64,000 bases of DNA from Owenia fusiformis. Lineage: Eukaryota > Annelida > Polychaeta > Sabellida > Oweniidae. The notes under the pieces were generated by a model. The model saw only the letters and a program-made list of their open reading frames with translations. It had not been told where the DNA came from and did no database searches. The stretch covers positions 11,256,842 through 11,320,841 of the forward strand of contig CAIIXF020000011.1 of assembly GCA_903813345.2 (NCBI GenBank), in the 5' to 3' direction. The translations under genes were made by a program, and so were the position numbers. This document shows, piece after piece, positions 6,276-39,479 of the stretch (positions within the stretch are counted from its first letter, which is position 1; the number at the start of each line of letters is the position of its first letter).

Positions 6276-9200
6276 ATGAGGAGCGTAGCTGCCGTGGTAT
6301 TCGCGGTGGCCCTGGTGGCCTTAGCTGGGCTGGAAGCTCAGAGAAGTAATGGTAAATTCGATTGGATGAGCTATGACAATTTTGATCAGATTATTGATAG
6401 GATGGACAGCGTCACTCCGGAGAACTGTAACTCTAAACCATCAGCTGAACTGAGACTCCACCCAGATACAGTATCACAGCTTCCCCTCACTAACAGACTT
6501 CTAAGTACTATTATTTATCCTAACAGGACATCTTTACTTCATCTACACAATATGGCGCTCAATCGGGCGTTCTTTCATAGCTACGTTAACCAGATTCTCA
6601 ATAACTCCCAGGTTGACCATAAAATGCAGCCCGGTCTCATGTACTTCTATTTCTCGACGGAGGCTGATATTGCCGCCAACCCCTGGGGCATTAACGGATC
6701 GGCCGTTATGTTCGACAACAACTGCAGTTACGCCAACTGGTACACCAATCTGGAATTCAACAACACGCTGCCATTATTCGGACCCCGAGCCTGGCGTTTC
6801 GACGACTACAACGATCCAACAAACTGGCTACGTGAACCAACAAATGAAACGCTGAACATCGATGACTATGGTGCAGGACCAGAACACAATTATAGTAACC
6901 CATCCTATAAAATAAACCAGTGGTATGACTACTGGATGCCTGATTATGACCCCTCCAGGGACTCAGTCATGAAACATACCTATACCGTAGGGATAAAGTT
7001 CTCCAATGAGACCGGGAGGTTCGTAAATGATGAGTTCGAGGGGAGATCGTTCTTTGGTCCACCACAGCCAAGTCAGAACTCTCCAGAAGAGGATCTACCG
7101 GTCAGATTTACAGCCCCCTATTACGATTGTGGTCGCTCTAACAAGTGGATTATGTCTGCCACTGCCCCCGTCCTAGACTATCTTCCTAGATACCTAGAAT
7201 GGATGCATCTACGACGGCAAAGGTAAGACAGAGATGTTGCCAATATAGCCCATTCATTCTCGGCAATTAGGCAATCGCGAGTCTTAATATTATTTAGTTC
7301 AGTCACAATTTTCTCATCATTGTTTTCATACAAACAGGATGGCTAATGTGTGAAACAACATCCACCAGGTATTCCATCATACAATGTTGTATCTGTTAGA
7401 ACCTCAAGTGTGCTTTATAGCTAGTCTACTGGTCCCCCTCCTGTAACTTTCTATTAACCATGCACATTAGAATTTCCATTTCGCGTGCTTTTGTCACAGT
7501 TTTATCCAGAAAAAGACATCATTGTCAAGGAAACCACCCCTCCACAAAAACTTCCAAACGGAGAAACTTTCCAATGTTAAAAAATGGGGTATGTTTGGTC
7601 ATAGATAGTTGAGTTACATGTAACAATCGTTTCCATTTAGGTTCGTTGCCGCCACTGTGCTGGACATAGATTTCCTGACCCTGGATTTCAACCCCTGCCC
7701 GACAGCTCAGGGTAACCCAGCCCCTAATTACTTCGCAAACACCGCCAGGTGCAAGCCTTCGACGATTGTGAGTAAATATAATGATGTAAAAATTTTGCAC
7801 AGATCGCCTATAGGGAATTGTGAATCTGTCTATATATTTCTATAATACATTATGCCAGTCTTTGTGTAGTAAATGAATCTTCATAATGCCTTGGTACAAA
7901 GGAAAACACAAAGTCACCAGGACCTAGATATCACGAAAAGTATCTCAAATTAGCTAGAGTGACCTATCATTAATGATTATGACAAGATACTTCTATGACA
8001 TGCTATTTGTATTCTCCCTTCTAGTGTGAGCCATTGATGGGGTATGGATTTCAACGGGGAGGCTACATTTGCATGTGCAGACCAGGCTACCGATACCCAC
8101 GTTGGCAGAATGGGCCCTATCTGGGAGTGGACATAGAGAGAGCTACGGAGGAGGAATACCAGTATGGATTCGAATGTGAAAAAGTGGACTGTAAGTTGAG
8201 CCTGAGACTGCAATACATACATGTCAGTATTGTGAAATTGTTTATATTATGCAAAGAAAATCTTAGTTAACCAATTTATAATTATCGAAATACGATTGTT
8301 TGCTTTTTGTTCTTGTATACCCCATCATATTTCTATAATTGTAAATTCCAGGGCGTGTGGTTATTCCTATAATCGACGGAAGTGACAACATGCCAACAAC
8401 AGTTGCAACTAAGTATGCCGTTAACAAGCGCGATATTTCCCAACTGTCAGCAGGTGGCTCTGTGGATGAGCCCCATAATGCACCTGTGGTAAGCAGACGA
8501 AAACGATCTGTTTCGAGGTGGCATGGTTCAGACAAGGCAGCTTTACTAAGTGCATTGGGACTTAAAGAATCGAACTTAAAGAAAGCCAAATTATCACCAA
8601 GGAAACGTATGGCTCCAAAGGTTTCCACAAAGGTAAGAATGATTAGAAAATGTTAACCAAGTTTTACCACAGAGATTCCGTACTATTGAGGTACAGCATT
8701 AATTGAAAGCAGAGACATATACAGTGTGTCCCATAAAAAACGCAACAAACAAAAACATTGTAAAATCACAAAACCAGTGATGATTACATCAATTTCATTT
8801 AGTTTATCATGAAGCCACATGTCTCCCCTTTACAATGGTATGTTATTTGTTCATATCTGATCATGGACCACTGGAAAATCATTGTTTTTTCGTACATGGG
8901 TGAAAAGGCCTTTGTGCCAAGTAATGAAATATCAATCAACTGATCCTTAATTGTGCAATCAGGTAAATCATGTAATTGGTACTGGGGATTAAATTTTTGT
9001 CACAAAATTTACATAACACAAGTTTCTGATTTAGATTTAGTAAGAAAAAATTAAAAGAAAATTTAACTTTAAGTATTCATCAGTATTCTTGTTGGTTCAG
9101 GTAACAAAATGCAAGACATATGGAAAAAAGTGGCATAGACAGTCGTTGTCTGTCATCTTATGAAAGATTACTTATGAAAGATTACATTCCATGCCCTTTC

Positions 9201-11861
9201 GCATGACCACTATTTAACACTGAGACTGGCCTTTGTGTCCATGTCGCACACCTCTTTGAATCATCTGGGGTTCTGGCGGAGGGCAGCAACCTCATTGGTG
9301 ACTCTTTGTTGCAATGTCTAAAACTTGGCCCAGAGCAGATTTTGGCACGTTGTGCAAAAGGAATGATGATTCAGTGGTCCATGGTTTTATATGAATAACT
9401 GACATACCATTGGAAAGAGGAGACATGTGGCTTCCTGGTAAACTAAATCAAATTGATGTTATCATCACTGGTTTTGTGATTTTACAATGTTTTTGTTTGT
9501 TGCGTTTTTTATGGGACACACTGTATATTTCATATGTCTCTGTTGAAAGACATAACTAAACAATATCAATAAAGAAATCATCATCAGTTGTACTTGTACA
9601 TCCTCATAACAGTGGTTTATTCACGTGACTGTGTACTATGTACGAAGAATTATAGGGTCCATTATTTCTTACGTATTGCTTTACTTTGCAAGGTGGAAGA
9701 ACCTCCTAAACGTGTATGGGCGCCACGTCATCAACGTGACACGTCATCCTTTAGAGTGAAGCGTTCATTCGACCAAGAAGCCAGAAGTAGAATAGAGCGC
9801 ATCATTGACCACATGAACACAATAAACAAAGATAACTGTAAAATAAAGACAAACACTGAACTTAATCTCCCTGGAGACCTTGCCTTTGGTGCCAAAGAAC
9901 AATTGCAGAATCAAGCCAGGACAGCCTTAAGGATGGCTCACTTCCTTAGTAACTTCCTCGAAAATGTCGACTTCTATGAAGAGTATGGTAACTTGCGAGG
10001 CGATCGACCTTTGAATTTCGAACTTTTGTTCGGTGAAGCCATTGCTAATGTTATGGGTGATTATAAAATATTTGGAAGTGGTGTGTTCTTTGACACAGAC
10101 AAGTTTAAAAACATGGATGGCACAACAAGGCAATATTTCGGACCATATTCTTGGAGAGGCAGTGGGACGAGAACTATGGCGATTGATTATGCAGGACATG
10201 ACGAGACCTACATCGAAGACGCTTGGTTTGTGGATGTTAAAGAACGTTGGCAGTCGAATGTGTACGGTCTTAAGAAATGGACGACTAAAGCCATGTTGAG
10301 GTCCAACTTATTTGGCACCAGTCTGAGGAGGTTCGAGCACTATCCCATGTACTATCGAGCCCCATCAATGGAGGATGGCCTTTGGTCCGCACCATATTTT
10401 GATTGTGATGGTTACATTGATGATTGGGTAATCACATACAGTGTTCCGTTCTTCGGGATGAACACACTGGGAACTAACATAGAGTTTAAGTAAGTTTTGT
10501 ACCAAAGTTGATTGTGGAATAGTTATCAATATTTCTGAAAAAAGGCTATTCGATCGTAAAAATCAGAGTGGCAAAGTTATGAAAACACAGAAATAAATCC
10601 TTTAAGGGCTGGTCTATGTGAAAAAGTCAGTCGACCTCAGCGGTTTTGTATGAATCATCGTTTGCTCCACTGTTAATGACATACGAATATCATTATTGTT
10701 TGAGAAGTCATACAGAGACGCTAATTTGTAATTTCTTACATTTTCCATCTTGTTTCTAACAGGGGTGTTGTTATAGTTGATGTGAAGCTTGAAGAACTTG
10801 ACGTAAATCAGTGCCCTGGGGAGTTCCATGTTCCCAATGCCTTTAAGTCTACTGCACGATGTGATTACGAAAGCACCTATGTAAGTACATAACATAAAAA
10901 TATAGAACTCAAATCCTTAAACAAAAAATTACTTCTTTCCTATTTGTACCTCTCACATTACCACTAACACGTCCGAATGTGGTGGAGCTGCCGGGTATCG
11001 ATCCCGGTGTGAAAGAAATGATGGTCCCCCAGGGATTATGGTCCCCTTTATCAACGGCCCTTTCTGGCCCCGATTGCGTATAAGGTAATTAGGGAAAGAG
11101 TTGTATTTAGGTCACCATATAACCAATGGAGAGTAGGACCATAATTTGATAGGACCTCCTACCCTTTTACACCGGTCCTCTCACATTTACCACTTCCAAA
11201 GTAAGCCAACATTATCTTGCTCTATAGGTAATATGTACCACCTCGCCAAGAATGAGGTATTTTGTTCAAATCACAAAATCATATTCATTTTGTTACAGTG
11301 TGTACCTCTACCGGGTAAGAGGTTTACTCGTGGTGGCTACAAATGCGAATGTCTCCAAGGTTTCGAGTATCCATTCAACGACCGAGCCTGGTACTATGAT
11401 GGTCAGACAATGGAGGAAGAGTACGATAAGATGATGCGTGGAGAAAGACATAGGTATAACATGAAGCCGTTTAATTAGCGTGAACAATTATTTTTATTTG
11501 TGATACAGTTTATGGGTTTGTAATTCTTGGCCAGTGTTTATGTTTTGAGAAAGATATAGTCTATTGTCGCATTGGTTCCATAAGTGTTTTGGGATTTACC
11601 TTTTCAATATTCATTGTTGGGTTCGGTCTGACAAAAATAATTTTATTTTAGATGTTCAACTATATCATTGTATTCTGAATGTATAAATAAAACTGGTTGA
11701 AGCTCAAAATATAAGTATCTCTGCATTTCAATTTAATTTCATATATATTTTTCAGGTTCAACACTCTCAAATGCCGAGAGGCAGGGGCGCCAAGAGTTTC
11801 AAGTGGATCAGTGTTGCTCATATCTGTAATTGCTTCAATCATGGCGTTCTTTGGCCGATAA
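6276..11861 (+). CDS. Tandem GPR158/GPR179-like ectodomain protein without seven-helix domain, probably GPI-anchored
   Basis: Exons: 6276-7222, 7641-7767, 8025-8190, 8352-8632, 9693-10489, 10763-10880, 11299-11453, 11756-11861; all phases fit and give 898 aa. The start is the ATG that opens a signal peptide (residues 1-22). Unit 1 (about 23-413) is a Cache-like domain (landmarks YYDCGRSNKW and DYLPRY) followed by a Cys-rich EGF-like stalk (CEPLMGYGFQRGGYICMC). Unit 2 (about 532-863) repeats it (APYFDCDGYIDDWVITYSVP, then CVPLPGKRFTRGGYKCEC). The linker carries basic cleavage-type sites RRKR (462-465), PRKR (496-499) and RVKR (528-531). After LKCREAG, where GPR158 relatives enter the seven-helix domain, there is only SSG plus a hydrophobic tail ending AFFGR, like a GPI signal. 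GPR158 is the metabotropic glycine receptor and its Cache domain binds ligand. Here I infer an extracellular ligand-binding or co-receptor role. Homology is clear; the anchor and function are inferred. Confidence 0.82.
8722..9523. mobile_element. Tc1/mariner-type inverted-repeat element in intron 4 of the GPR158-like gene
   Basis: It begins CAGTGTGTCCCATAAAAAAC and ends in the reverse complement, with TA on both sides (8720-8721 and 9524-9525) as the target duplication. The arms match over about 100 bp. The 802-bp interior has no intact transposase, so it is non-autonomous. A related element lies at 15911-16865. The flanking bases outside the TA (about 8703-8720 and 9532-9550) are also inverted copies of one another. 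Confidence 0.85.
10946..11198. repeat. Insert flanked by direct repeats, in intron 6 of the GPR158-like gene
   Basis: The phrase CCTCTCACATTACCACT near 10950 recurs as CCTCTCACATTTACCACTTC near 11177, bracketing about 210 bp. Near its left end is a perfect stem CCGGG-(7 nt)-CCCGG resembling a tRNA T-arm, so the insert could be a tRNA-derived SINE fragment, but no A box or tail is convincing. Confidence 0.35.
11686..11691 (+). other. Possible alternative poly(A) signal in the last intron of the GPR158-like gene
   Basis: AATAAA lies 208 bp after the stop codon (TAG, 11476-11478) that would be used if exon 7 were not spliced to exon 8. An mRNA ending here would encode a form without the hydrophobic tail. 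Confidence 0.4.
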
Positions 11862-11877
11862 CATAAAGAACATGTCT

Positions 11878-11883
11878 AATAAA
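11878..11883 (+). other. Poly(A) signal of the GPR158-like gene
   Basis: AATAAA starts 17 bp after the TAA stop of exon 8, which would give a very short 3' UTR. Confidence 0.55.
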
Positions 11884-13086
11884 CTAATGTACAGTCGGTA
11901 ATTGTCACATGGATCATATCAGCTCCGCCTTTTCTTTAGTTACACAGTGTCGGAAATGAATCTACTTGAAGTTTTGAATTTTCATGTGGATATTACTTCA
12001 TTCTCAATGTTTGTTGGTTGTACATGCAATAGTGCAAAATAACGATACAGAGGAATGACAAAGAGGATACAAGTTAACGTAAGAATGCTTATACTAAGCC
12101 ATGAAGTAGAATCGGCAGGAGAGTAGATTCATTCCATTGTAAATAGCACACAGGAAGAAATACAAAAACTTCCGTATGAGATTGCCATATATGGGACATA
12201 GTAAAAGGCATTAGGCAATCACTTATTGGTATTTCAGTGTGTCATGTGTATATAAAGTTTTTATACTGCTTAACGTATTTTTATAATAAGTAAAAATATC
12301 ATATCTGGACGTTTAGAAATATTGCCTACATTGTGCACTAAATATTCGCATTTAGATTCATTTACGCGATGTGGCAAATATATTGTAAACTGTCATATAA
12401 TGATTGTCTGTCATCAGACGTTGAAAATACAAGTGTTATTACACAGAGAAATTTATTGACATCTATAATTTGAAAATGATCATCAGATGCATGGATGAGT
12501 AAATCTAGTCTTCATATTAAATGTTACCTTACCAGTGTAAAGTCACATTAATTTTGCACCAATGAAACGTTTGTTATATCCATAACGATGAAAATAATTT
12601 TAAACCCGGCCGTGTTGTTAACATCAAGGTCAACACAGTAAAAAGGGAACCAAGGGGAGGTCACATTTTCTATTATAGCTAGACATGATTTGTCTTGTAC
12701 AAAGGTACCACAACGCTTGCCAAAATTACATTTTCTGAATATTCATACCAAAAATCGTAACACATGCTACACAAATGTATAGTTGGAAACCCATGCCTCT
12801 CTATCGTTTCAAAAAATTTACCCAACGTGTCGGTCTCTGTTAATTTATGGCATCCATACTTTTCTGAAAGGTAACACTTTGAGGTTCAATTTTCTGCCGG
12901 ATGCCCTTGCAAACTCTCATTGGTTGCTCTGTATTGTAGCATTCCGTTACCATGGTTACGCATCTATAGACATCTTACCTTGGAATCTTAAAGCATTTGT
13001 AGCTTTGTCATTATTTGGTCTATAGATATGATATTGGTATCAAATTAAACCTAGATAAATTTCTCATATACTTACAATATTCAATT

Positions 13087-13122
13087 ATGCAAATTAGCTC
13101 ATTTGCATAAATTGTGACGTCA
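13087..13122. promoter_or_regulatory. Palindromic octamer pair with adjacent CRE-like site (one of four)
   Basis: ATGCAAAT and its complement ATTTGCAT sit head to head (13087-13108), followed by TGACGTCA (13115-13122). The same module is at 13458-13479 (a perfect 22-bp palindrome, with a one-base variant TGATGTCA beside it) and, mirrored in the right arm, at 18276-18311 and 18649-18684. ATGCAAAT is the POU octamer and TGACGTCA is the CREB/ATF palindrome. That either factor binds here is inference. Confidence 0.5.
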
Positions 13123-14353
13123 TAAATCTATTTTTGGTTCAGAATTTTCAAGTATAGCAATGTATCTTCAAGAACTGAAGCTGTACGGTAGAATTTCTTC
13201 AATGTTATGACTTTTATTCTATGAGCAGAAGGTTTAAGCAACATAAAAGTGAAAACAAATTCAAAATTGGATCAGAACTAACAAAGTTATTAAGCTTTCT
13301 GGGCAGCTACCATGAACGTCATCATTGAACAATTAACTTCAACATCTTACCTTAGAATTGAAATGTTTGGTAGCTTTGTCACTATTTGGTCTATAGAAGA
13401 GATCTTGGTATCGAATTGATCCTATTTGAATAAACGGTATGGTAACGATATTCAATTATGCAAATTAGCTAATTTGCATAAATTATGATGTCATCAATCT
13501 ATTTTGAGTTCAGAACTTCCAAGTATAGCAATTAATTTATTAGATCCGAGGTTGGATGTTGACGTTTCTGCATAGTTTGTCATTTATTCTATGAGTGGTA
13601 GAGGTATGAGCAACATAAAAAATATTCAAAATTGAATGAGTATTAGTAAAGTAATTCAGCTTTTGAGGCAGCTGCTATGAACGTTACTATTTGACAATCA
13701 TAAATAAAACACTGAAATAACAAAAATGAAACAAAGCTGATTCAAGCTTATTGAGTGAAAAATATATATTTTACATGTCACTGAATTAGTTGGTGTATAG
13801 AAATGATATGGGTATTCATAATTTTGACTATCATTGACAGGGGTCAAAACAGTTTTTTTGATTTTGTAACATGATTTATTGTTTGTGAGAAAGTTATGGA
13901 TTAATCAGTTAGTGAATGGGCGAATGGTATGGTGACATCTGTTATGTAATCTATAAATCTTTGAAATAATTTGCTTCATAGGCGTCAATCTATTTAAAAA
14001 TGCGAAACATCGTGACTGGTCAAACATCAATATTTATGCTTCAATTCAAGCAGTGAACATCTACATGAATTTTTAAACTGATTTGCAAGGACGAAACATC
14101 ATGACTGGTCAAACATTAATATTTGTGCTGCGATTCAAGCAGTAATCATCTACATGACCTGTTAATACAAATTGATGAGGTTATATCACAAAATGTATGT
14201 CATTGCTTTTTTTATGTCACCACCAAAAGCGGTGACATACAGTATTGGTCTCCATTTGTCTCCATTTTTAAGATGTCATTTGACAATCGACTCCCTTCAC
14301 TCATTTTGTCCGATTACTGGCAGTGACATTAAATAGTCAATTTTTATTATCTA

Positions 14354-16865: not shown

Positions 16866-19059
16866 TATTGATTAGATCTTCATTAGATTAGATCATTCCA
16901 TATTAAAGCTTCTAAACTTTAAAAAGTGTAAAATAAAATAGTTTAGATTCAACCTCTGTCAATCATACTACGTGATTAACTCCTTTATTTTGCACTTAAA
17001 TCTCCTGTTGTTACGGTTCTCAGTTTTGAATGGTATCCATTGTCTATGGGGATATACCTGAAATCCATCCATTTGAGACTCATATTTTCATAGATTTTTG
17101 GTATTTCATATTTTGGAAACCTTTTAAAACAAGTTCAGATTATAAGTCCTATACCATACATACTTTTGGACATAAGAGATAGATGTAGGAAACCTATATG
17201 TAGATGTAGGAAGGGTTAGTTAAAGTCCTACAAAAATCAGTTCTTTCAAAAATATTTTAAAGGGCATTTTTTCTTCGTGGCTATTTTGATCAATAGACTT
17301 TAATTTCAGGATTACTAGCTAGTACTACTACTGAGCTCTTGTATGGATTTTGTCATCATTTTTCATTGCATATCGAAGAGGTTATATTATGTAAAAGTAT
17401 ATAAAAACTACTTTTCATTTTGCTTCTCTAAGTACCCACTTTCTGCTTATAGTCCATTTTCAGAAAAGCTATAACATAAATCATTCAAAGGTTGAATCAT
17501 AAAGGATTTTGAAGGTTAAAAAATTCCCCTAAAGTAGTTGTCACATTAGCTGTGTGGGCTCGCCATTTGCTACCGATTGAATTATTTTGGGCATTGATTT
17601 TTGGAACTGTTTAAATCTAAGTTCTAAAGTTGACACTCTATCTGTATTTTAAATATAAAATGGTAATAATTAAGATTTATTTAGTTTATGTCATAATATC
17701 AACAAAATTTTGTTTTCAGCTTTTTCACATGTTAGAAATCAAATGAAAGCAGGAATACTCTTCCATATAAATTTTGTAAATATTGATATGTATATTAGTC
17801 AACATATGTCAAAATAGCATAATTAAAGCATTACTATGTATTCATATGGATCATAGACAGTGTATGGTAAATCATAAAATTAGATTTTAAAATCAAGATC
17901 ACATGATTTTGACCCCTGTGAATGATAGTCAAAATACATGTAACATTTCCACATACTTTCATGTACATTTCAATGGAAAAATATGAACAAGTCATATATA
18001 TTTAAACTCAATAAGATTGAAACAACTATGTTTGTTTCTTTTTTTTGTTATTGTAATATTTTTATAATTGTCAAACAATGACGTTCACAGTAGCTGCCCC
18101 AAAAGCTGAATAACTTTGCTAATTTTGACCCAATTTCGAATCTGTTGTCTCTCGAATGTTGCCTCTATCTTCCACTCATCAAATAAAGGTCAAAACTATG
18201 CACACATCTGTCATTCGGCCTAAGTTTTAATATATATGTTGCTAAACTGGGATATTCTGAACAAAAATAGATTGATGACGTCACAATTTATGCAAATTAT
18301 CTAATTTGCATAATTGAATATTGTAATCGTACAGGAAATTTTATAAGGTTTAATTTGATACCGATATAATTTCTATAGGCCAAATAATGACAAAGCTACA
18401 AACACTTTAAACGTCAATGGTAAGATGTCTGAATATAATTGTCAAATAATGACATTCACAGTAGCTGCCTCGAAAGTTTAATAACTTTGGCAATACTGAT
18501 CCAATTTTGAATCTGTTTTCACTTTTCTGTTGCTTATACATTCTTCGTATAGTCTAAAGGACCAAACTTTGCCGAAATTCTGATATACGGCCTCAGTTCT
18601 AATAGATATGCTGCCATTCTCGAAAATTCTGAATCAAAAATTGATTGATGACGTCACAATTTATGCAAATTATCTAATTTGCATAATTGAATATCATTAC
18701 TTTATGAGGAATTTAATTAGGTTTAATTTGATACCAATATCATCTCTATAGACCAAATAATGACAAAGTTACAAATGATTTAAGATTCCAAGGTAAGATG
18801 GCTATAGATGCGTAACCATGGTAACGGAATGCTACAATACAGAGCAACCAATGAGAGTTTGCAAGGGCATCTGGCAAAAAATTGAGCCTCAAAGTGTTAC
18901 CTTTCAAAAAAGTATGGATGCCATAAATTAACAGAGACCGACACGTTGGGTAAATTTTTTGGAACGATAGAGAGGCATGGGTTTCTAACTAGTAGCAAGA
19001 ACCCATGTTACACCCATGCACAAATCTTGTTATTTCAAAGACACCATCGATATAAAACC

Positions 19060-20357: not shown

Positions 20358-23300
20358 ATGGATCAAAAAACAAGAATACTTAAAAACATCACTGTTGTAA
20401 GTTTTGCATTTTTGCTTAATTTCACTGCTTATCAGTCTTTGCAGAGCCTTCAGAGCAGTCTCAATCGAGTGGAGGGATTAGGGACAGCCGGATTGGCTGT
20501 TCTCTATGCCTCTCTCCTCGTTTCTAGCGTCTTCCTTCCAAAGGCGATCATTAAAAGAATAGGATGCAAATGGACCATTTCTGCAGCTTTATTTTGCTAC
20601 ACGATATACATAGGAGCCAATTTCTACGCTACTTGGGCAACAATTATTCCAGCCTCTATTGTTGTTGGCCTGTGTGCTGCCCCCTTGTGGACGGCCAAAT
20701 GTACGTATCTGACTGAATCTGCAGTTGTCTATGCCAAGATGAATGAGGAAAAGGCTGAGTCAGTCATCAACAAGTTCTTTGGTATCTTCTTTATGGCATT
20801 CCAATCAGGTAGAAATTTCAGTTAAAGCACAAAGTTTAACCTCAATTTAAATCTTTTACTGATGATAGAAGTATAGTCACAGCAATTGATTCAAGTTGAG
20901 TGCAATAAAACGTCTGCAATATTCTTTTTGGGGTAGGCAAAGTTGATAATATTTTGAACTTTTACTGGGCTTTCAATAGCACGGGGCGAGTGTCCGAAAT
21001 CGCCGTTTGTTTTCGATAATTCGCCGTTTGTTAGAAGTCAAATATTGTCTAAGTTTTGGGGGAAAATATAAGTCTTCTATAGACTATCCTTTATTTTATT
21101 CAGCGATCTTGTTTTGCACTTCCTTGTCTATGATTTGTACCTCAGTTTCGAACTGCAATGGAACTCACTATAATCGTAAGGATCACTTGATCTCATTATA
21201 GTAGTAAACACCGTCCAATTTTGTACCTGTTTGGGCTATGGATTTTAGATCACTATCTGACCACTATCATGTGCATGATAATTCAAATTCCAACCTTTGG
21301 TATAATCAGAGTTGGTTATTTTTCACTGGACATGCAGTTACATGTATGATTGATACAACTCTGTCCAACCAGTCACAGTACAGTCTACCCTGCGTCAGTG
21401 CGTGCAGAGTCTAGTTAAACTACTGAAGACGAAGAAGCTCTCTTTTAAGAAGTGAAGTCAAACGAATGCAAAGGGTAATTGCAGTCCTTCCAATGGGTGT
21501 AAAATTGTATTAATCAGTTAAAGGCCCCATATAAAGTTTAAACCACTTTGGCTTATATTTTTGTCTTATCCAATGTTATCAAAGCGTGAAATGTGAAACT
21601 TTTTATTAATTTCAAAAATGTTTTTGAAGGACTTTTTGTTTAAAATATCGTGAATTTATTCAAAACTAACTTTAAGAGGTCACACTAATCCTTTAAAGCG
21701 ATAATTCACACCGATGTATAGCAATCATCCTCACTTGTTCTTTTGCCGACAAAATCAAGAAAATTGGTTGATAGGTGAGCGAGCAATGAACTCATCCATG
21801 CATGAAAGTGGTTCAGGGAAAGATGCATTTCAAAATTTTAATTCTCATAGAAACCAATGGTAAACTAATATTTAAAACATATTCATCCTTTTAACCTGGT
21901 TAGACAGTCAAAATTGGTTTATTGTTTAGCATATTTAGAAAAGATTGACATTGAAAAATGTTGCCACCTAAGTGATGTCACGATGTGGTCACTTAGGTTG
22001 AAAATATTTTCGATATGCTAAATCATTAAATTGGCACATTAGATATAACATTTTATTTTTAACATGGTGTGTCCGTTATATATTGGTGTTAAAAAGATAT
22101 AGAGGTTCTTATATGAGTACCTGTGCAAGATCGTCCATTCTTGATGAGATTTAATAATTCCTCTTTATCGAGTCGCAGACGAGATAAAGAAACATTATCA
22201 AAGCGACTGTCGGATAAATTATGAATGTAGTTTCGCACAGGTGTCAACGGAACCAAACAGTGAACCCCGCTTTCCCGAACCCGAGTTTCCAGAATTCGCC
22301 TCGCATGCCTTCGACTCTTTCTCAAGATTTGGGCCCTAATTTTCTCAAAATATATTGTACCCCGACATTATCATCCTGGTGTCTCGTTTATAACACCCTT
22401 GTAATTACAATGCGAAGTTACTTAAGCATGATAAAAAGTGTATGTGTGGATGGGGGGAGGAGGTTTGACCCCCGCTTACCAAAAGCTGGGACATGTATAC
22501 CTTTATATACTCAACCGGCCAAGTATTAACAGTACAAAAGGGAGAAAAAATCCACCAGGTCCATAATTCTACACGTTCACGTACAAGTTTAAAAAAGTGT
22601 ATCTTAAATTTATGTAGAACTACGCCTTTGTACAAGCGACGCATTTTCACAGGTGCGTCTTTACAATGAAACACAATAACGAGAATTGCAACTTTAGGAT
22701 CTTGAAAAAAGTTGCAATATTCTTCCTGGTTAGAATAGGTTTCCACGTACAACTAGAAACACTATATAAAATAACTATCTATACACCATCAATGCAAATA
22801 TATGCTTTCTTCCATTCTGATACTCATGGCATCTTACTGTTTCACCTGAAACACAGGGCTGAGAAGAAATGAGATGTCATGATGGCTTTCTTCGAGAATA
22901 CATAATGCGGGCCCGGGAATGCGGGGTGCCACATTCATTGCAACACACCTTGCAACAATGTCTTATGAGGGTAATTTCTTATATTGAGAAGTTTATCATC
23001 TATTGAAATTAAATACTTGTAGCTACAAAAAGCGAATTTGTTTGAGCAGTCCTAGCTCGACATATTGAAAACAATATTTACAACATGGTATTCTTAGTAG
23101 ACTGTTCAATTTGGAATTTCGAAGTAGCCAAACATCAGCTTTCTAACAAAAATCATCATTAAAGGATTTTATCAAAGTCTTCCATGCAAATGAAGGTGTG
23201 AATTCACATTAACAAATTAAGATTAGATCCACAATATGATATCAAATGGTTAAATGCGCAAAATGTGTAGATATGTTTTCCTTAATAATGTGTGAGGAGG

Positions 23301-26300
23301 CCTTTCAGGCAATTTTCGAAAACGTAGTGAGAACAAGTTTGGTGTAGAGGGGAGGGGGATATCTCCCACCTCGGTCTCTCGCTAATGCCTTGGCCACATA
23401 TGCGCCGGGCGCCGGCCGATGATTAGTCATCGGCCGATTTCTAAATCAATTTCGACAATAATTATCTAATTCGGCAATTTTAGTTACAAAACATGAAGGT
23501 ACATTATGTAAAATTTTGAAGACAATTGGTGCATATTTAACAAAATACCGGCACCAGTCCTGTTACTTTTGGAACACCCTGTATGTCACCATTTCTGGCA
23601 ATGTCTGGAGGCGGTAAAAACTAAAATGAATCTGATATACACATAATCACAAGTGAATCATCTATTAATACATCACTCTCATTTTAATAATGACAATTCT
23701 AGATTTTGAGTTCTATTAAAAGTGTTCAATTCAACGGGTGCATTTGGATTTGTGAAATGCAACCTGTGTAAGGGTAAGTTATCTTATAAAAGGTAAATGA
23801 CATTCTATATAAGTTGCCCTAGTCATTCCACAGTTCCAGGTGTTATTTTGTGGAGCCCATGTCTTGTCACATCACACGTGGAAATGACTTTGACAAACCT
23901 TGGACATCTTTCTTTCAGTCCATGGACTCTAAAATAACAAGAATTTGCATTGTCGGGAGCGTAAAATTGGTTATTTTGAATGCCGCCTCTTGTATTTTTC
24001 ATCTGCCCCTTGTACACAAAGTTACTGAAACCACTGTTTTAACTACATACCCTATGAGTTGGTTCATAAAATAAGTCAAAGGCCCTACAGTCCACATGTA
24101 AGTCAACAGAACTGCCACCTTTCTTTTGATCAAGTCTATGAAATGAACAATGAAACTTTCGAATTTGGCTTATCTAGGTCAGATATGGGGCAACATTATA
24201 TCGTCCCAGGTACTGAATAAGAGATCTGGGAATGATACAGAGCCTGTACCTGAATCAGAGCTACAATTCTGTGGTGCAGCCTACTGCACTGAACGAACAA
24301 ACTCATCCAATAGCAATCTGGAGAAACCTCCAATCAACCAAGTAAGTCAGCCCCGGGGGCCGGGATCATATTCTAAGATCATGCAATGCAGGCTGTGTTG
24401 TAGGGGAAATCTAAATGTTTTTGTATTCCACTTTGTGACCTTTTACCGTCATATTAAAAGAACGTGAACTCTCTTTACTATATTTCAGTGAATTGTCTAG
24501 GTCAAGTCTACATGTACATATTGATAAGCGTTGATGACGACAACGATGACAATGATGACAATATTAAATGGCATCATGCTGATTCTATCTTAAATAATGA
24601 AAATGGTGGTACAAATACGCACTGCCAAGAATCAGAACGTAAACAATTAAATAATAAGAGTAATTGTATTTCCAGGTGTATATGCTATGCGGAATTTATG
24701 CTGCTTGTTCTTTCATCTCTTCCATTATCATCGCGTTATTTCTCGATCCCCTTAACCAACACGCAGACGACAAAACTCAACCGAAAAGCCAGCCGAAAAA
24801 TTATGACGAATCAAAAGATTATACAAATATGAGCAGTGAGTTAAAGAACAGACGAGATGAAAGAGATGTTAACGAAAAAACAAAAATACGAATAGATGAT
24901 TCTGTAGAAGATAGGTCCAACAAATTCAAGCCTGAGCAGCTAATAGCAACGTTCAAACATTTTAAACATTTTAATCAAGTACTTCTCATACCATTAACAA
25001 TATTTACTGGTTTGGAGCAAGCGTTCTTTGCGGGTGATTATACGAAGGTAGATCGATCCTTTTGTATGATATATTTTATTTAAGTAAAAGAAAGTTACAT
25101 GTTTGAACTATTTACAAGTATAGTCCCATTGCCAGTAAATTTACATTATCAATTGGCTTGCTAATTTCAATTTCTTTCGGGTTAATGAAACGCAATACTC
25201 ATATTTTGATATTCAATAAGTATCCAAAACAAGCGACATCCATTCCAAATGCACTCGTGTGGTAAACATAACAGATTACACATTTTAGTCGTACGTGAGC
25301 TGTGCATTGGGTATCTTCATGGTTGGTTACGTTGTCATCTGTTTTGGTGTGTGTGATGCCATCTTCTCTTTCACATTTGGACGTCTCGTCAAGTACATCA
25401 ATAGATGGCCATTGATCGCAGGAGGTATGTACCCATAAACACAGGTACATTATCGCAGGAAGAAGATGTCCACAAACATTTGCAGATGTTCTATTATGTT
25501 TTTGATCAAAGAATTTAAAATAGTAATCGAGAGTAATTTGTTGTATCATCCTAATAGAGGAGTTTCTAAATGATTTTGAAATCTCGCTAATTCTCGTTTT
25601 TTCATGAGATTTTAAGAGATTTGCACATTTTACCTCAAATGACTTACTTTTCTTTCTTTTTGATAGCATATTTGAATTCAGTGATATGTTTCCTCCAATA
25701 ATAGCTTTTATTTACACATTTATGTCATTTAAATCATTCTCCATGACATTAAAAAAAAACTTGGGCCAAATCTCCATTGATGTTATGCTAAAATTCTTTA
25801 AAACCATGGTTTAATCGTATGACAACCAACATTTTCATGTTTAATCACAATATGTTCATTGACAGGGTCATTTTATAGTATGCCATTCAAATTTCAGACA
25901 GATTTAACTTACACTTTTTGATAAATCATGAAATTAAGTGGCTATTGCAAGCTTTTAGCATAGAACTAAATGGAAGGTTGGCCCAAGATGAACAAAGGTG
26001 ACATCTATTATGTCAGCTTTATTCAGCTTAATTGAGCTATTTAGAAACTATACTATTGCCCATAAATAAAACAAAATTGTTATTCTGCAAAGTATGTTTA
26101 TAATAATATAAACTTGGTAAACTTCAGTGTAAACTGTCCTCGTTTTAAAATGCAACAATCAGTCAACCAGACCACGTTATAGAAATTCATTCTTTCAGCG
26201 GCAGCATTGCACTATGGGATACTTATAACAGCGTTATTGTGGCAACCAAGACCAAGTTCTCTTCCGATATTCTTTCTCATTGCTGGTCTATGGGGAATGG

Positions 26301-32022: not shown

Positions 32023-35000
32023 CTACTTCAGCATATAAAACGCTGATACTGCAAGGGCACCAAATGCAAATGCATAGACTGCATATTTAGTGTTTGATTT
32101 AGTAGCCCCATCTGACACAACTGGTGTAGTCCCACTTGGTTTTACCTCCTCAACTGGCTCTTTAGCACTGTCAACAATGTCTACTTCTTCCTTTTGAATT
32201 CCTTCTTCACTTATAGGTGTGGGGACAGTTACAGATTGTGAATCAACTGCTCCTGATTGGTCAACTGTCTGACCTTGACAATTTGCCCCATCTATTGGCT
32301 GTTGTGGGGTGACTGGGAATCCAGGGTGTTGCATGGTGTCACCTGGGGTTTGGGGTGCAGGAGTGGAGGGACAGCTTGAGGTGGGGGTGTCAAGGGGCAT
32401 TTCTGACACAGCACCCTGAAACAAACAAAATATATGAACTAGTTTACATTGCAAGGCTTACATTTCCTAAGCATTTCATTTTCTAAAACTCAATTTTGGA
32501 CATAGTCTATAAAATTAAAAATTTGTATCTTCTTCTATCTTCTTATTTCATTGGAGGTTAATAAAATTAATTAGAGGAGCTGCATCACAGATATTACAAT
32601 GTTGGGAGAAAGCCATGCTTACCCATCCTCCTTGGTTGATGATGAATTCTGTGTATTGATCAGTGACAATCCTCTCTGTGTATTGCACAAGTTCATTCAA
32701 GCCCCTCTGGCCGTGTCCAACCAGAGACCGCCCAATATCACGACTAAACACCAACAAGCAGGCAACCTAAAGTATGGAAAATTAAATAGATTTAATAATG
32801 AAGAAGGGTAATGGCTAGAGACTAGTCAGTTCTTATTGTGGTTTGGGAAAATTGATTGTAAATGACAAAGTAAATTTCTAGAGCATGTCTACATGGTTAG
32901 ACCACAATCTAAATAAAAACATCACAATTAAATATATAAATATTTCAATCAAATTGGTCCCAAGTGATGTTTTGAATGAAGCAAGGTCTCATCAAATTCC
33001 TAGTCTACAAAATATATTGAAAACAAAAAGTTGTTTAGCCCCGAGATGATTACAATGACCGACTTCAATGTTTGTACAGCATAAGAGTCCTTTAAGAGAG
33101 GAAAAAATTATCTCGAATCTTGATTGTTTGCAGTGAAGTGACTTTACCCTGCGTGCAGAGTCTAGTTAAACTTCACTCTGCCTAGTAGAGACAATATTAC
33201 AGTTTAGTAGCCCCGCCCCCACGACGGGTACCGGTGACAGTTTGGGTAATAAATCACTTCTGACCTACGCGCTGACCTTTCTTCCACAAATCAGTGAGCT
33301 TGAAGAAAATACGCCAAATGCGTTCTAATTAAATATGCCCATGTCATTGGTCAATTCTGGGCTCAACGATGACATCAGAAGGAATGACCATATATAGAAT
33401 GTCGGTCAAATTTGGCCGACGAACACTGATTGGCGCGGTGAGTTCACAGGTTTATTTTAGTTTGAAAGAGTGAAGACGAAGCTCTCTTTTAAGAAGTGAA
33501 GTCAAACGAATGCAAAGGGTAAAGTGACTTCAGATTTTTGAAAGGAAAATGAGTTGAACATTTGCCAAAGTAAAGGTTTACAAAAAGTGGTTTTGATTAT
33601 TATTTTGATCAATTGCCAATTTTGACGTGACTGTGGGGGAATGGTCTTGACCTAAATGAATATTTGCAAGGAAATAAATGTTAAAAAAAGTAAATGTAAA
33701 TGCTTTCTTTTACCTTTCACCGCTTAAAGGAACTGTGGCACCTATGCATGATATGTGGACAAATTATCATATTCTATAGTTCCCATGTCATAATAAGTCA
33801 GACTTAGTTCAAATATCAAAGCATAACGTCAACTATAAAGTAGTTCAATTTGATGAAAACTAAAAATATCAAAATCGACATTTCCCCTCCGCCATCTTTG
33901 ATACGAAGGTGACGGCCATTTCCTTCACTTGATACTGACCAGTGAAAGTGGGAGTCAGGTGATTCAAATATGGGAAATTTTAGTCATACAGGCAACAACA
34001 ATAACTTACCCGTGCCCAGCCATGCGTAAAAGCACCATGTGGTTCAGGAACAATAGCATCTAGCAGACTCTTTGTGATATTCACAAACACATCATAGGTG
34101 ACATTCTCCCTTGGCATTCCCATTACCTGGAATAATACAGGAAACAAACACATCATAGGTGACATTCTCTCTTGACATTCCCATTACCTGGAATAATACA
34201 GGAAACAAACACATCATAGGTGACATTCTCCCTTGGCATTCCCATTACCTGGAATAATACAGGAAACAAACACATCATAGGTGACATTCTCTCTTGGCAT
34301 TCCCATTACCTGGAATAATACAGGAAACAAACACATCATAGGTGACATTCTCCCTTGGCATTCCCATTACCTGGAATAATACAGGAAACAAACACATCAT
34401 AGGTGACATTCTCTCTTGGCATTCCCATTACCTGGAATAATACAGGAAACAAACACATCATAGGTGACATTCTCCCTTGGCATTCCCATTACCTGGAATA
34501 ATACAGGAAACAAACACATCATAGGTGACATTCTCTCTTGGCATTCCCATTACCTGGAATAATACAGGAAACAAACACATCATAGGTGACATTCTCCCAT
34601 GGCATTCCCATGACCTGAAATAATACAGGAAACAAGCACATCGTATGTGACATTCTCCCTTGGCATTCCCATTACCTGGAATAATACAGGAAACAAACAC
34701 ATCATAGGTGACATTCTCTCTTGGCATTCCCATTACCTGGAATAATACAGGAAACAAACACATCATAGGTGACATTCTCCCTTGGCATTCCCATTACCTG
34801 GAATAATACAGGAAACAAACACATCATAGGTGACATTCTCTCTTGGCATTCCCATGACTTGGAATAATACAGAAAAAGCACATCATATGTGACATTCTCC
34901 CTAGGCATTCCCATTACCTGGAATAATACAGGAAACAAACACATTGTATGTGACATTCTCCCATGGCATTCCCATTACCTGGAATAATACAGGAAACATA

Positions 35001-38000
35001 CAACATGTACAGGGTGGGCCAAAAAAACGCCACTTTTTTTTCAAAATGCTGTAACTTTTTTAATTTTTGATACAAAATCATAATTTGCATACCAAATGAA
35101 ACTTGAGGTTGTTATCTAGCCATGGATCATGAATTATATACCTTTACTTGAATAAAATATGTCACCAGCGTCTCACTTAAACATGTGGTGTGCCATGAGA
35201 AATAAGCATTATTTGCAAAGTGTTCCTGAACTGATACGGCCTGATGACCGCCAAGCTAATAGCCCTAATGCAAACCCCAGTGAGTATAGGATATGGGAAG
35301 GTCTCCAGGAGATGGTATGAAGGCACCCAATCTAAAAAATTGCTCAACTAAAGCTGGCAATTAAGACAAATTGAAAAAAATATAGCTAACATTTCATTGA
35401 TACTGCTATATCAGCAAGGCGACCAAAACTAAAATCTATCATCAAACAGAGTGGCGGACCAATTGAACTCCTCTTTTAGATCAAATATAATCCCAGTTGA
35501 AGGACTTGTTACATTATATTATTACTAAGAACCCTTGGCACTTTATAACTGCAAAATTTGGGGTATGTAGGTTGGAAAATAAAAAAGTTATAGTGTCTTG
35601 AAAAAAAAGTGGCGTTTTTTTTTGGCTCACCCTGTATAATGTTTTCACATTTATACTGATTAAGCTGCATTGTACAGTACAGTAAAACCTGTATTAGTGA
35701 ACACCTCTCTCTAGTGAACACCTGTGACCTGTGTCTAGTCAACATCTCTTTTCAGCACATATTCCACTGACATCTGTATAAAATCGGCTCTTATCTCTGT
35801 ATTCAACATCTACCTATGGTGGACACATTTCTGTGACTATATAGGTGTTCACTGTACACAGGTTTTACTGCATATGATTGTACTGTATTATGTCATATTG
35901 TTATGTATTGTATTGTATTGTATTGTATCGAATTGTATCGTATTTAATGTATTCAATGTATTTAATATAATATGGAATTAATGCAATAAAAAAGAAAAAT
36001 TGATGTTTCTCCAAACAAATGTTTGAAAGTGTGTATTCGCTAGAAAATATTGCAACTAGCGGTGAAGTAATATTATATAATCTGTTTTATGAAGTTTCTA
36101 GCGAACATTTTGTCATTTGGTGTTAGTTTGAGATAGTTATCATGCAATAAAGCTATTAAAGCAACAGGGTCCAGGATAGCCTATTGATATTATGAATGAT
36201 GACCCTCATTTGAAAGATTAGGTAAACAGATAAGCTTGATAGTTGAGTCAAAAGTCGACCCTCACTCGATAGTTGTTGGCTAGCGGACTTCCCAGCAGTG
36301 GGCAATAAAATCTATTCAAATGCTAATTGAGTAATCATTATTTCAGCTGACGGGGGGGGGGGGGGGGGGGGGGGGGTCCGATATTTGGTATATAACGAAT
36401 GCACACAAAGTTTATGACATAACTTTAATAATCATCAGATCAATAAGCCTTGAACTTATGATGCACTTCTTTTAAGAATCTTATGACCTCACCAAAGAAC
36501 ATATAAATAAGAGATAAGATAAGACAGAAGCCAGACAGCACAGAACATTTTTATCAAAAATATGTCACTGATAAGACCAAACTGAAACACAATTGCATGA
36601 TGAAATTGGATGACAATATGATAACAATGTTTACTTTAGAACCAAACTTTAGTAATTTATTAAGTTTAATAATTTTACAACTTGAGAATAACTAAATATG
36701 AATATTACAGTAGTGATGATTAGTCATAAAATAAACAAAGGGTGTTATACATAATATAACATTTCAAAATATTATGTTATATGTCAAAGTGACATTTGAG
36801 GCTTTCAAGTGTTATTTTGTTTTGTCTAAATGTGATGATTGGTCTAGCTACATCATGTTGGTCTATGACCTGAAGAATGTATATGTAAGACTTATTTTAA
36901 GAAACATTATTCATTTTGCATTTAGCAATGAATCAGGCAAATCACCTGCTTTTCCAGACAGGTATATTAACTAATCTTGTTTATGTGAACTTTGAGTTGC
37001 TGTTTATGATGTATGTGCAAGAGTGTGCCATTATTTGCTATGTAACTACTTCCCTGTGTTATGTACACATGTTAACTTTTTATAGCTAAAAGTGCCTTCT
37101 TCAGTCATTTCTTAATAAAATTTATACTTCTGACATTTTAAAGCTGCTTTCTTGATCAAATTCTATTTTCCTAAATTCTAGAGCACACCTCAAGAATTTT
37201 GAAAACTGTGAAAATGAGAATTTGATCTAACTTGTGAAAAAATCTAAGAAGATCACTTCATGTTTTTGGGGATTAAGAGCTGGATATCTGTGAATTAAAA
37301 TATGGTTATTTGAAAGTATGACATACTTGTTGTTTGCTTGCTTATTTGGCATGCGAGTGACTAGTGAGCCATAATATTCTCAACGTTAACATCTGGAATT
37401 CATTTAATATCTAAACAGCACTTCACACTTTATAATACATTCTGCCCATATATAACTTTTAGTAAAATATCGATGTTAACAGACTTACCAGACCAAGAGC
37501 ATTTTCAAACTGCGGCTTATATTTTTCTGCCATTTCATCCCCAATCAAAGCCAGTCTTTGTGCAACTTCAGTTTGAGTTCCTTCTGGAGTCAGCGCAAGT
37601 GGTGTTCCGACAGATTCCGCAACTTTAATAAGAAAAAAAAACAATTCCAATCTACAATACCATAAATTTTAATTATCCACGATTGTGTTATTATCTAAGC
37701 ATTGATAATTACAGTTACATGTAGTCTTGTAAGCAATCAAACTATCATGTCCAAAACTTCTTGTAATTTTCAAATCTGAATTTCTTAAAATAAAATTTAA
37801 ATAGAGAAATCATAATACCTTTATGTACTTCTTCAATGTATTCATGATCCACGTGTGATTGCACATCCAAGGTGAGGTGTGATCTATCAGGGCCCATAAG
37901 ATGAAATCTAGGAGGTGCTGCTCCAAGGTCACTTATGCGAGAGCTTACGGAACTTTGATCCGATAAAATAGACTCCCTGCTATAACCACGCCTATGGGAG

Positions 38001-38938
38001 TGCCTCGGTAGGTCTTCAGTTTGTGATGATCTGTCAGTACTTGTAGTGGAATCTTGACTATGGCTACGCATGTGGTTATTCAACGCTGTCATGCCATCTT
38101 GCATCGGCATCAATAATGTCGCAACCTGTCCCCCTTCATCATGGCCTGCTTCATCTCCAAGGGCCATATCTCCCTGACTCTCTGTCTCAGAATTCTCTGC
38201 TTCTGGGCTGAACTCTTTAAAGCCAGCTTGGTGTGGAGGCATAAGACATGGTTCATCTTTCTCAACCTCTATTTTGGAACTGATAGGACTATCTGGTACA
38301 ACAATGCGACTGAGTGGAGCATCTGCTGATTCTGAATTATTGTATCTTTTGATATGGTTACTTACATCTTGAGCTTCTATTTGAGTTCCTGAATCAGCTA
38401 ATACTATGTCCATTTCACTTTCAATACTTGTGGCACTGTCACACTGATAATGGTGAGCACCTTCTCCTGTGACTGGAATTGCAGTGTCTGGCCTGGGTTC
38501 CATGGGACTTGATTTCTTTTTGAGAGGTACTTTCGTATCTGATGAGGTTTTAATAGGCAACCCCTTATACTGATCATCTGGGGGCCAAGGCTTTGGAAAA
38601 CCATCTGGGGAATCTAGATCCCGCATTGGAGATACATTTCGCCTGACACCCTTTTTTCCAGTGACACGATTTATCACTTTATTTTCAGGTATTACATTTA
38701 AGTGATCCTTTCTAGGGGACTCACCTGGAGTGCCCCAGCCACTGTATGTGGAAGAGGTGGCTGAACCATGTTCATCTTCTTCAGAAGAAAGATCCCAATT
38801 TCTGTGATGGAGGTGTTCAGGCAACATGCCTAAGAAGTTCAGAACCACCATTTTGGTTTCATGCGATAAATCCTCAGGTGTCATGGGCGATTTGCTTCGG
38901 CCACGAGAGCCACTAACACCTAAATATTTGCTTCCCAT
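32023..38938 (-). CDS. BCL2L13: BCL2L13 (Bcl-rambo)-like protein with a long insertion between BH4 and BH3
   Basis: Exons in coding order: 38938-37819, 37622-37489, 34126-34010, 32766-32623, 32415-32023; phases fit, 635 aa. Order of parts: BH4-like HETKMVVLNFLGML (26-39, cf. human ETKYVVLSYLGLL), a 340-residue Ser/Pro/acid-rich low-complexity segment, BH3 VAQRLALIGDEMAEKY (393-408), VTYDVF, BH1 around HGWARVACLLVF (454-465), BH2 EFIINQGGWG (497-506), an acidic Pro/Thr-rich linker (507-613), and a C-terminal membrane anchor (about 616-634, ending YMLK). Human BCL2L13 is an outer mitochondrial membrane protein acting in mitophagy and apoptosis. There the long insert follows BH2, whereas here most extra length precedes BH3, and the BH3 core (L-x3-G-D) is closer to BAK. 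It is head to head with V-ATPase E, as in human. Exon 3 begins inside a 61-bp tandem array. Homology is firm; mitophagy function is by family. Confidence 0.85.
33135..33531. mobile_element. MITE in intron 3 of the BCL2L13-like gene
   Basis: The ends GAAGTGACTTTACCCTGCG and (inverted) GAAGTCACTTTACCCTTTGC form terminal inverted repeats of about 20 bp. It has a shorter relative at 21378-21484. No open frame is present. Confidence 0.7.
34088..34995. repeat. 61-bp tandem array (15 units) spanning the exon 3 acceptor of the BCL2L13-like gene
   Basis: Units start near 34088, 34149, 34210 and onward. The first contains the first 39 nt of exon 3 (34126-34088) and the last 22 nt of the intron, including the real acceptor TTATTCCAG|GTAATG. 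The other 14 copy both parts into the intron. Units 1-8 and 10-13 alternate CTCCCTT / CTCTCTT, showing a 122-bp higher-order repeat. Last copies near 34880 and 34940 have small indels. Confidence 0.95.
35010..35634 (+). mobile_element. Tc1/mariner-type element with transposase remnant
   Basis: It begins CAGGGTGGGCCAAAAAAACG and ends in the near reverse complement (CGTTTTTTTTTGGCTCACCCTG), flanked by TA. A plus-strand fragment near 35240-35325 reads SPNANPSEYRIWEGLQEMV, like the SPDLNPxDYxxWGxLQ block of mariner transposases. It lies in an intron of the BCL2L13-like gene beside the 61-bp array. Confidence 0.85.
35680..35870. mobile_element. Small inverted-repeat element (MITE)
   Basis: The ends CAGTAAAACCTGTATTAGTG and the inverse of CACTGTACACAGGTTTTACTG match, with GTGAACACCT-type phrases repeated inside. 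A T/A-rich simple repeat with ATTGTATTGTATTGT follows (35885-35990). Confidence 0.65.
36352..36376. repeat. Poly-G tract, about 25 bp
   Basis: An uninterrupted G run in the BCL2L13-like intron. Its exact length is unreliable in any assembly, and on the transcribed minus strand it reads as poly-C. Confidence 0.8.
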
Positions 38939-39479
38939 AATTGATATTATTGGCTTGTAGTCTAGATTCTTATGTTCCTCTCGTCCGAAATTGTTGATAC
39001 AATGTATTTCTTAGGCTAATGAAATTTACACTCTATTATTTTGTGGTAAGAATTGCCCTGTTGAATCAACAAGTTGATCGCTAGCTGTTATTTTTTGAAG
39101 TACTTCGAGTGTTCAAGGTATTTATATCAAGCCAAATGATGAGTTCTGCGAAGTTTTGTAGAGGATAAAAATATTTTCTCTTTCTGCAATTTTCAACAAA
39201 ACGGAATTCCCATATCTTAGGTCACGTGACCTTTTAAATGTTATCCAAATTCAGGGATATCGTCGAGTTTGTTATGAGAATACTTTTAAGGTCCATTTTA
39301 GGATATGTTCACTCATAATACTGTTTGAAATTGGCACAAAACGTGTTTGGTGATTAATAGACCATAGGGAATTCCCAAAGTCACATGATAGCCGCCATTT
39401 TAGCTCTGAAAAGTGAAAATCTCAAAATATCCAATAGTTCCCGATTTTCTCAGTCTTGAGGCTAAAATAAATATTCGCC
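38939..39479. promoter_or_regulatory. Shared head-to-head promoter of BCL2L13-like and V-ATPase E genes
   Basis: Only 541 bp separate the two divergent ATG codons. The interval contains GTCACGTGAC (39221-39230), a related GTCACATGAT (39380-39389) and GCCGCCATTTT (39391-39401), which resembles a YY1 site. No TATA box is obvious. Human BCL2L13 and ATP6V1E1 are also adjacent and divergent. Confidence 0.75.
39221..39230. promoter_or_regulatory. CLEAR-type E-box (TFEB/MITF family site)
   Basis: GTCACGTGAC is a perfect 10-bp match to the CLEAR consensus that drives lysosomal and V-ATPase genes in vertebrates. It lies 283 bp from the BCL2L13-like ATG and 250 bp from the V-ATPase E ATG. Confidence 0.6.

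Follow-up and report, generated by a model that had tools for sequence, protein, structure and literature searches.

Introduction

Until recently, GPR158 counted as an orphan receptor. Its coupling is unusual in that it proceeds through RGS7-Gbeta5 (sources including PMC8611064). In the same source, the ectodomains of GPR158 are described as dimerising side by side, and its D-loop as contacting extracellular loop 2. The combination of a Cache domain with an EGF module is a receptor architecture of metazoans (PMC12716839).

Two further kinds of system bear comparison with the gene described below. The alpha2delta subunits are GPI-anchored, cleaved and Cache-bearing, and have a VWA domain next to their Cache domains. 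In soluble or truncated receptor ectodomains and decoy receptors, the ligand-binding part of a receptor is made without its signalling part. A partial literature search found no receptor-less, doubled or GPI-anchored GPR158 ectodomain, and unnamed relatives in databases are possible.

Here we describe gene A, which very likely encodes a two-unit, receptor-less protein with a secretion-signal-like start, an anatomy read from the sequence and intact in two paralogues. The window is the whole 64-kb stretch of DNA that was analysed (C11:11256842-11320841). Genome searches were made in the window's own assembly, which comprises 498 Mb in 525 contigs.

Structure and domain content of gene A

Gene A (6276-11861, + strand) consists of eight exons that join into a single 898-aa frame, ending at 11861, and its introns have GT-AG borders in 7/7 cases (Table 1). 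The N-terminus is hydrophobic (KD 2.79 over 15 aa) and gives the protein a signal-peptide-like start.

Table 1. Features of gene A, with positions in the window
Feature	Position	Strand	Description
Exon 1	6276..7222	+	Start codon, putative signal peptide (about aa 1-21), unit 1 Cache part
Exon 2	7641..7767	+	Unit 1: last Cache strand and first half of EGF-like stalk; phase 2 to 0; PF22572
Exon 3	8025..8190	+	Unit 1: second half of EGF-like stalk; phase 0 to 1
Exon 4	8352..8632	+	Basic linker between the units, without cysteine, poorly conserved
Furin-type site 1, RRKR (aa 462-465)	8495..8506	+	Pattern
Exon 5	9693..10489	+	End of linker, then unit 2 Cache part
Furin-type site 2, RVKR (aa 528-531)	9753..9764	+	Immediately N-terminal of unit 2; also in paralogue B
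Exon 6	10763..10880	+	Unit 2: last Cache strand and first half of EGF-like stalk
Exon 7	11299..11453	+	Unit 2: second half of EGF-like stalk
Exon 8	11756..11861	+	LKCREAG (end of receptor match), then GPI-signal-like tail, stop codon
Candidate GPI signal	11781..11861	+	A-G-A (aa 873-875), spacer PRVSSGS, hydrophobic VLLISVIASIMAFF, stop; by eye, similar layout in B

In the Pfam scan, PF22572 (GPR158_179_EC) matched the whole 898-aa protein in two stretches (E 3.9e-48), and each unit alone was above the cut-off (E 1.1e-18 for unit 1, 3.2e-28 for unit 2); this model has 96 positions and covers only the Cache end plus the stalk. EGF models stayed below their cut-offs with the gene A protein. Among solved structures, the best match of unit 1 was GPR179 (E 8e-07), and five of the six rows up to E 1 were GPR158 or GPR179, the sixth being C1r (E 0.6). 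Unit 2 matched GPR158 best (E 4e-14); here GPR158/GPR179 accounted for five of seven rows up to E 1, and the rest were lumazine synthase (E 0.95 and 0.96). Compared with one another, the two units show 27% identity (E 2e-21). The first-pass annotation had placed two GPR158-type units in one 898-aa frame, and the splice borders, the PF22572 match in each unit and the structure matches bear this out, so far as sequence comparison goes, firmly.

The same annotation regarded both as full Cache units, a reading that is less secure for unit 1 than for unit 2. The Cache-type model PF22673 matched the whole protein (E 9.2e-11) and unit 2 (E 2e-09) and gave no match with unit 1 alone. For unit 1, a Cache fold is therefore assigned by resemblance to unit 2, and a full Cache domain appears better supported for unit 2. 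AlphaFold models of exon 5 with exon 1 as a second row, and of the reverse arrangement, were unusable (mean pLDDT 29.8 and 29.6).

Several other elements were recorded downstream of gene A and elsewhere in the window. An inverted pair with 562-nt arms (12780-13341 and 18430-18991, 88% complementary) is accompanied by further overlapping pairs. On the + strand at 20361-25083 there are two open frames with matches to UNC-93 (PF05978), one with E 4.8e-08 and the other, barely at the cut-off, with E 5.7e-05. A 61-bp tandem repeat occupies 34083-35002 (about 15 copies, 95% matches), and a 421-aa open frame at 37745-39010 (-) has no Pfam match at E 0.01.

A paralogue of the same layout

With E 10 as the limit, a search of the gene A protein against its own genome listed 21 matches, of which eight were the exons of A, eight belonged to a second gene, B, and five fell at loci on C3, C7 and C8. 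There was no third twin gene among the matches listed, the counts being lower bounds. Gene B (C11:30688651-30715020, minus strand) has nine exons and encodes 915 aa, with its parts in the same order as in A: a signal-peptide-like start, unit 1, a basic linker, unit 2 and a short hydrophobic end. Each of the seven introns of A is matched in B by one of identical position and phase (phases 2, 0, 1, 0, 2, 0, 2), and B has one additional intron inside the Cache exon of unit 2.

Overall, A and B are 63.7% identical over 882 aligned codons (pS 0.841, pN 0.255). The identity is 67.3% in unit 1 (388 codons; pN 0.217, pS 0.858) and 72.9% in unit 2 (339 codons; pN 0.183, pS 0.872). It is 34.5% over 110 aligned codons in the linker (aa 412-531), and 48.5% in the tail (33 codons, a few of them shared with unit 2 as delimited), the less well conserved of the two protein ends. 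As synonymous sites are saturated, no dN/dS ratio is given. Set against the low pN, the saturated pS means that both units are under purifying selection and have long been kept by it.

The units were also placed in a small tree (107 columns, nine short rows, one of them partial, with long branches). Unit 1 of A grouped with unit 1 of B, and unit 2 with unit 2, both groupings being well supported; the layout therefore predates the duplication that gave rise to A and B. The branch of unit 1 is long and stands apart from every receptor.

Receptor genes of the same genome

Genome-wide, PF22572 gave eight matches, distributed as one in A, two in B, three on C3, one on C7 and one on C8. In the stretches searched, the loci on C3, C7 and C8 each hold one ectodomain exon set, with matches to 7tm_3 (PF00003) further on; at C8, one of these is above the cut-off and one below. 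The assembled ectodomain of the C7 receptor matches human GPR158 with E 5.7e-32 and is the closest GPR158 relative among those compared. At the C8 locus, tandem copies of a short piece, FRLNSTHHAIEIDFVQPTVDIADGHWTY, lie just before the Cache-end exon (L016:7001-7665 = G000:C8:6607001-6607665).

The receptors on C3, C7 and C8 have one intron after F-K at the end of the Cache part and one directly before CVP in the stalk. Both are common to unit 2 of A and, by alignment, to unit 1. From these shared introns it follows that one unit corresponds to the exon triplet of the receptors, which is doubled in A and B. The intron after the stalk differs, being in phase 2 in A and B, in phase 0 in C3 (counted manually) and absent from C7. 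In the C7 and C3 receptors the stalk continues as C-L-P-C-x-x-G-C, with the D-loop cysteines, and then helix 1; a pattern search did not find the D-loop exon in C8. This cysteine pattern is present in human GPR158/179 and absent from A and B. The match of gene A to a receptor of its own genome stops at the CRE motif, where the first-pass annotation had put its end: gene A reads FNTLKCREAG, as against FQCLPCRHGC in that receptor, and human GPR158 has CLPCREGC at this position.

One gene, no seven-helix domain

Two findings could have overturned the proposal of a receptor-less double ectodomain, namely two separate genes or a seven-helix exon downstream. The DNA gives no sign of the former. The frame of A leading into exon 5 is open back to 9573 and contains no ATG as a start codon for unit 2, and in B the frame into the unit 2 exon is closed at once, also without a start codon. 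Intron 4 was also scanned, crudely and with phase-0 donors only, for hydrophobic ATG frames, and no signal-peptide exon of any conviction emerged. In gene A the scan returned two hydrophobic ATG frames, at 9425 (weak donors) and 9487 (no donor), and in gene B one such frame without a donor. Since no start codon was found for unit 2 and a twin gene has the same layout, the two-gene reading was rejected. Intron 4 of A also contains an inverted repeat with 176-nt arms (8714-8889 and 9356-9531, 89% complementary) that resembles a non-autonomous DNA transposon; the frames at 9425 and 9487 both begin within one of its arms.

Nor was a helix exon found in the DNA near either gene. The 7tm_3 search gave 72 matches in the genome, three of them on C11. 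These lie at 10.76 Mb and 30.47 Mb, some 0.5 Mb away from A and 0.2 Mb away from B. The helix exons of the C3, C7 and C8 receptors match each other across loci with E 2e-8 to 8e-18. The best E value of these exons was 0.028 against the 64-kb window of A and 0.020 against 40 kb around B, including 8.6 kb past its stop. A missing helix exon was likewise rejected, since the 7tm_3 search matches 3/3 receptor loci and nothing near A or B. In both genes the stop codon immediately follows the tail, and neither gene model contains a cytoplasmic region, the part that binds RGS7-Gbeta5. The receptor-less double ectodomain of the first-pass annotation is thus upheld, with a 64% identical twin gene of the same layout and the receptor genes elsewhere serving as controls.

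Linker, glycosylation and cysteines

Lysine and arginine together make up 22% of the linker in A and 30% in B, and neither linker contains a cysteine. Sites of the form RX(K/R)R are confined to the linker in both proteins (2/2 in A, 5/5 in B), and the RVKR before unit 2 is common to the two. When the linkers were shuffled 5000 times, the mean number of sites was 0.28 for A and 0.64 for B, and the observed count was reached in 3.1% and 0% of shuffles, respectively; with whole-protein shuffles it was reached in 8.9% (A) and 0% (B). By these frequencies, the excess of furin-type sites is weak in A alone and strong in B. Furin-like cleavage in the linker is likely, with candidate sites recognised from the motif pattern.

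Unit 1 carries eight N-glycosylation sequons in A and eight in B, seven of them at shared columns; in unit 2 there are none in either protein. The four units have eight invariant cysteines each, of which two belong to the Cache part and six to the stalk; in addition, unit 1 has one extra cysteine in A and extra ones in B. As the shared cysteine set is even and the linker lacks cysteine, there would be nothing obvious to join the chains after cutting.

The C-terminal tail

The protein of A ends in LKCREAGAPRVSSGSVLLISVIASIMAFFGR and that of B in LKCRPASAPRIAGSSILLLVIAAVIHMMH. Both follow the pattern CR-x-A-(G/S)-A-P-R, and then a short hydrophobic end. In A the hydrophobic run is about 14 residues long, in B 10, and almost nothing lies beyond it. 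A GPI signal consists of small residues, a short spacer and a short hydrophobic end, while a membrane span is normally longer. Read by eye, A and B both have GPI-signal-like features, namely small residues, a seven-residue spacer and a hydrophobic end of 10-14 residues. A GPI anchor, attached via this putative signal, is the probable outcome. The first-pass annotation had noted neither this tail nor the linker with its furin-type sites nor the restriction of sequons to unit 1.

Reading through the donor of exon 7 in gene A (11454-11691) adds YNMKPFN before a stop is reached; an AATAAA comes next, at 11686, and another lies at 11878, behind exon 8. At the equivalent donor in gene B a stop follows immediately, with AATAAA about 30 nt further. 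An alternative soluble end by such read-through is conceivable for both proteins.

Ligand-contacting positions

The residues that contact glycine in GPR158, which we take to be S172, R173, Y269, E271 and D307, with E/D on the acidic amine side, were numbered by hand on alignments; the numbering fits the residue numbers named in the literature consulted. In chained alignments, the equivalents of S172-R173 are N-G in unit 1 of both A and B, F-G in unit 2 of A and H-G in unit 2 of B. At the other positions, all four units keep Y, have D for E, and keep D, the acidic amine-side positions being retained. The N of the N-G pair in unit 1 forms part of a sequon shared by A and B. The C7 receptor departs further, with F-G replacing S-R, F in place of Y and S in place of E, while D is kept. 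In the C3 and C8 receptors, the position of Y is occupied by Y and that of E by D.

Glycine had been put forward as the ligand by analogy with the mammalian receptor, and the residues do not support this: the Ser-Arg pair taken to contact glycine is replaced in all four units and also in C7. As the pair is not conserved, mammalian-type glycine binding is unlikely in A and B. The ligand is probably not glycine bound in the mammalian way, and an amine or another ligand would be possible.

Discussion

We propose that A and B encode precursors. In the Golgi, a furin-like protease would cut the linker. Unit 1 would thereby become soluble, with heavy N-glycosylation, and unit 2 would have its C-terminal signal exchanged for a GPI anchor. 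With no helices and no cytoplasmic tail, the protein would presumably be unable to signal by itself. It could act as an extracellular partner of the GPR158-class receptors of its own genome, pairing with their Cache domains, or it could bind the same ligand as these receptors and so tune their activity as a decoy or co-receptor. The chances are about even for this scheme as a whole, that is, a furin-cut precursor yielding a glycosylated soluble unit 1 and a GPI-anchored unit 2 that serves as a non-signalling partner or decoy. Points that weigh against it are the mild excess of furin-type sites in A alone, the want of a Pfam match for the Cache fold of unit 1 beyond the PF22572 part, and the lower conservation of the tail. 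The receptor-partner role taken separately, as non-signalling partner or decoy, is more tentative, falling a little below even. A co-receptor or ligand-sequestering role, as raised in the first-pass annotation, is plausible, and the furin-type sites and GPI-like tail give it a candidate anatomy. It is important to note that interaction with GPR158-class receptors may occur but is something we purely infer. A further version seems improbable, in which furin would free unit 1 as a diffusible glycosylated Cache-EGF protein that acts as ligand or decoy for GPR158-class Cache domains, the GPI-anchored unit 2 would be its matching partner, and the anchor signal would derive from a truncated helix 1. 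To see a remnant of helix 1 in the hydrophobic tail is guesswork.

The structural reading could be mistaken in two ways. Neighbouring genes might have been wrongly joined, or the seven-helix exons of an ordinary receptor missed or lost in the assembly; the gene model does come from DNA alone, and both units are like receptor ectodomains. Against such an artefact stand the repetition of the layout in gene B, the unit 2 start codon that was not found, the lack of a helix exon near A or B from a search that matches 3/3 receptor loci, and the stop codon directly behind the tail in both genes, so that this explanation is extremely improbable and already close to refuted. The hydrophobic C-terminus might also cross the membrane once, as a stub of helix 1, instead of serving as a GPI signal, given that the tail sits where the D-loop and helix 1 stand after the CRE motif in receptors. 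A run of about 14 (A) or 10 (B) residues has the usual length of a GPI signal and falls short of a typical plasma-membrane span, and we consider the span improbable as well, far less so than the artefact.

The function, too, could be a different one. If the linker were incompletely cut, both units would remain in one chain as a built-in pseudo-dimer on a GPI anchor, copying the side-by-side ectodomains of the GPR158 homodimer. Two diverged units in one chain, each under selection, would suit this, as does the side-by-side dimerisation of GPR158 ectodomains (PMC8611064), but the restriction of furin-type sites to the linker in A and B and the strong sequon difference between the units speak against it and leave it unlikely. 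About equally doubtful is an auxiliary or adhesion protein in the manner of alpha2delta, working with other partners (channels, proteoglycans) and no longer tied to GPR158-type receptors. The long branch of unit 1 apart from the receptors in the small tree and the absence of the presumed glycine-binding Ser-Arg pair fit such a protein, and GPR158 itself reportedly acts with the GPI proteoglycan glypican-4, as cited in PMC8387153. However, the Pfam scan showed no VWA or other alpha2delta domain among its eight families up to E 1, and unit 2 is more receptor-like.

On the proposed reading of a receptor-less precursor, A and B would exemplify the conversion of a GPCR ectodomain into an extracellular protein in its own right. 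As a natural, long-preserved ligand-binding part without a receptor, present alongside the receptors themselves, they could provide a tool for finding the ligands and partners of invertebrate GPR158-class receptors. The residues of A, B and C7 further suggest that glycine recognition may not extend to the invertebrate members of this class.

Comparison with known systems

GPR158 (mGlyR) and GPR179, both of class C, share with A and B the Cache plus EGF-like unit of PF22572, and the C3, C7 and C8 receptors of the same genome have the Cache/EGF and mid-EGF exon borders in common with A. Compared with GPR158/GPR179, A and B have two units, a furin-type linker and a GPI-like tail, and they lack the D-loop, the seven helices, the intracellular tail and the presumed glycine-binding Ser-Arg pair. 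The alpha2delta subunits resemble A and B in their extracellular Cache modules and, if our reading of A and B is correct, in proteolytic maturation and GPI anchorage; they differ in that A has no VWA domain (eight Pfam families, E up to 1) and its units belong to the GPR158 family. In contrast to soluble and decoy receptors that arise as a splice form or a shed fragment, A and B are a pair of dedicated genes in which the ectodomain is duplicated.
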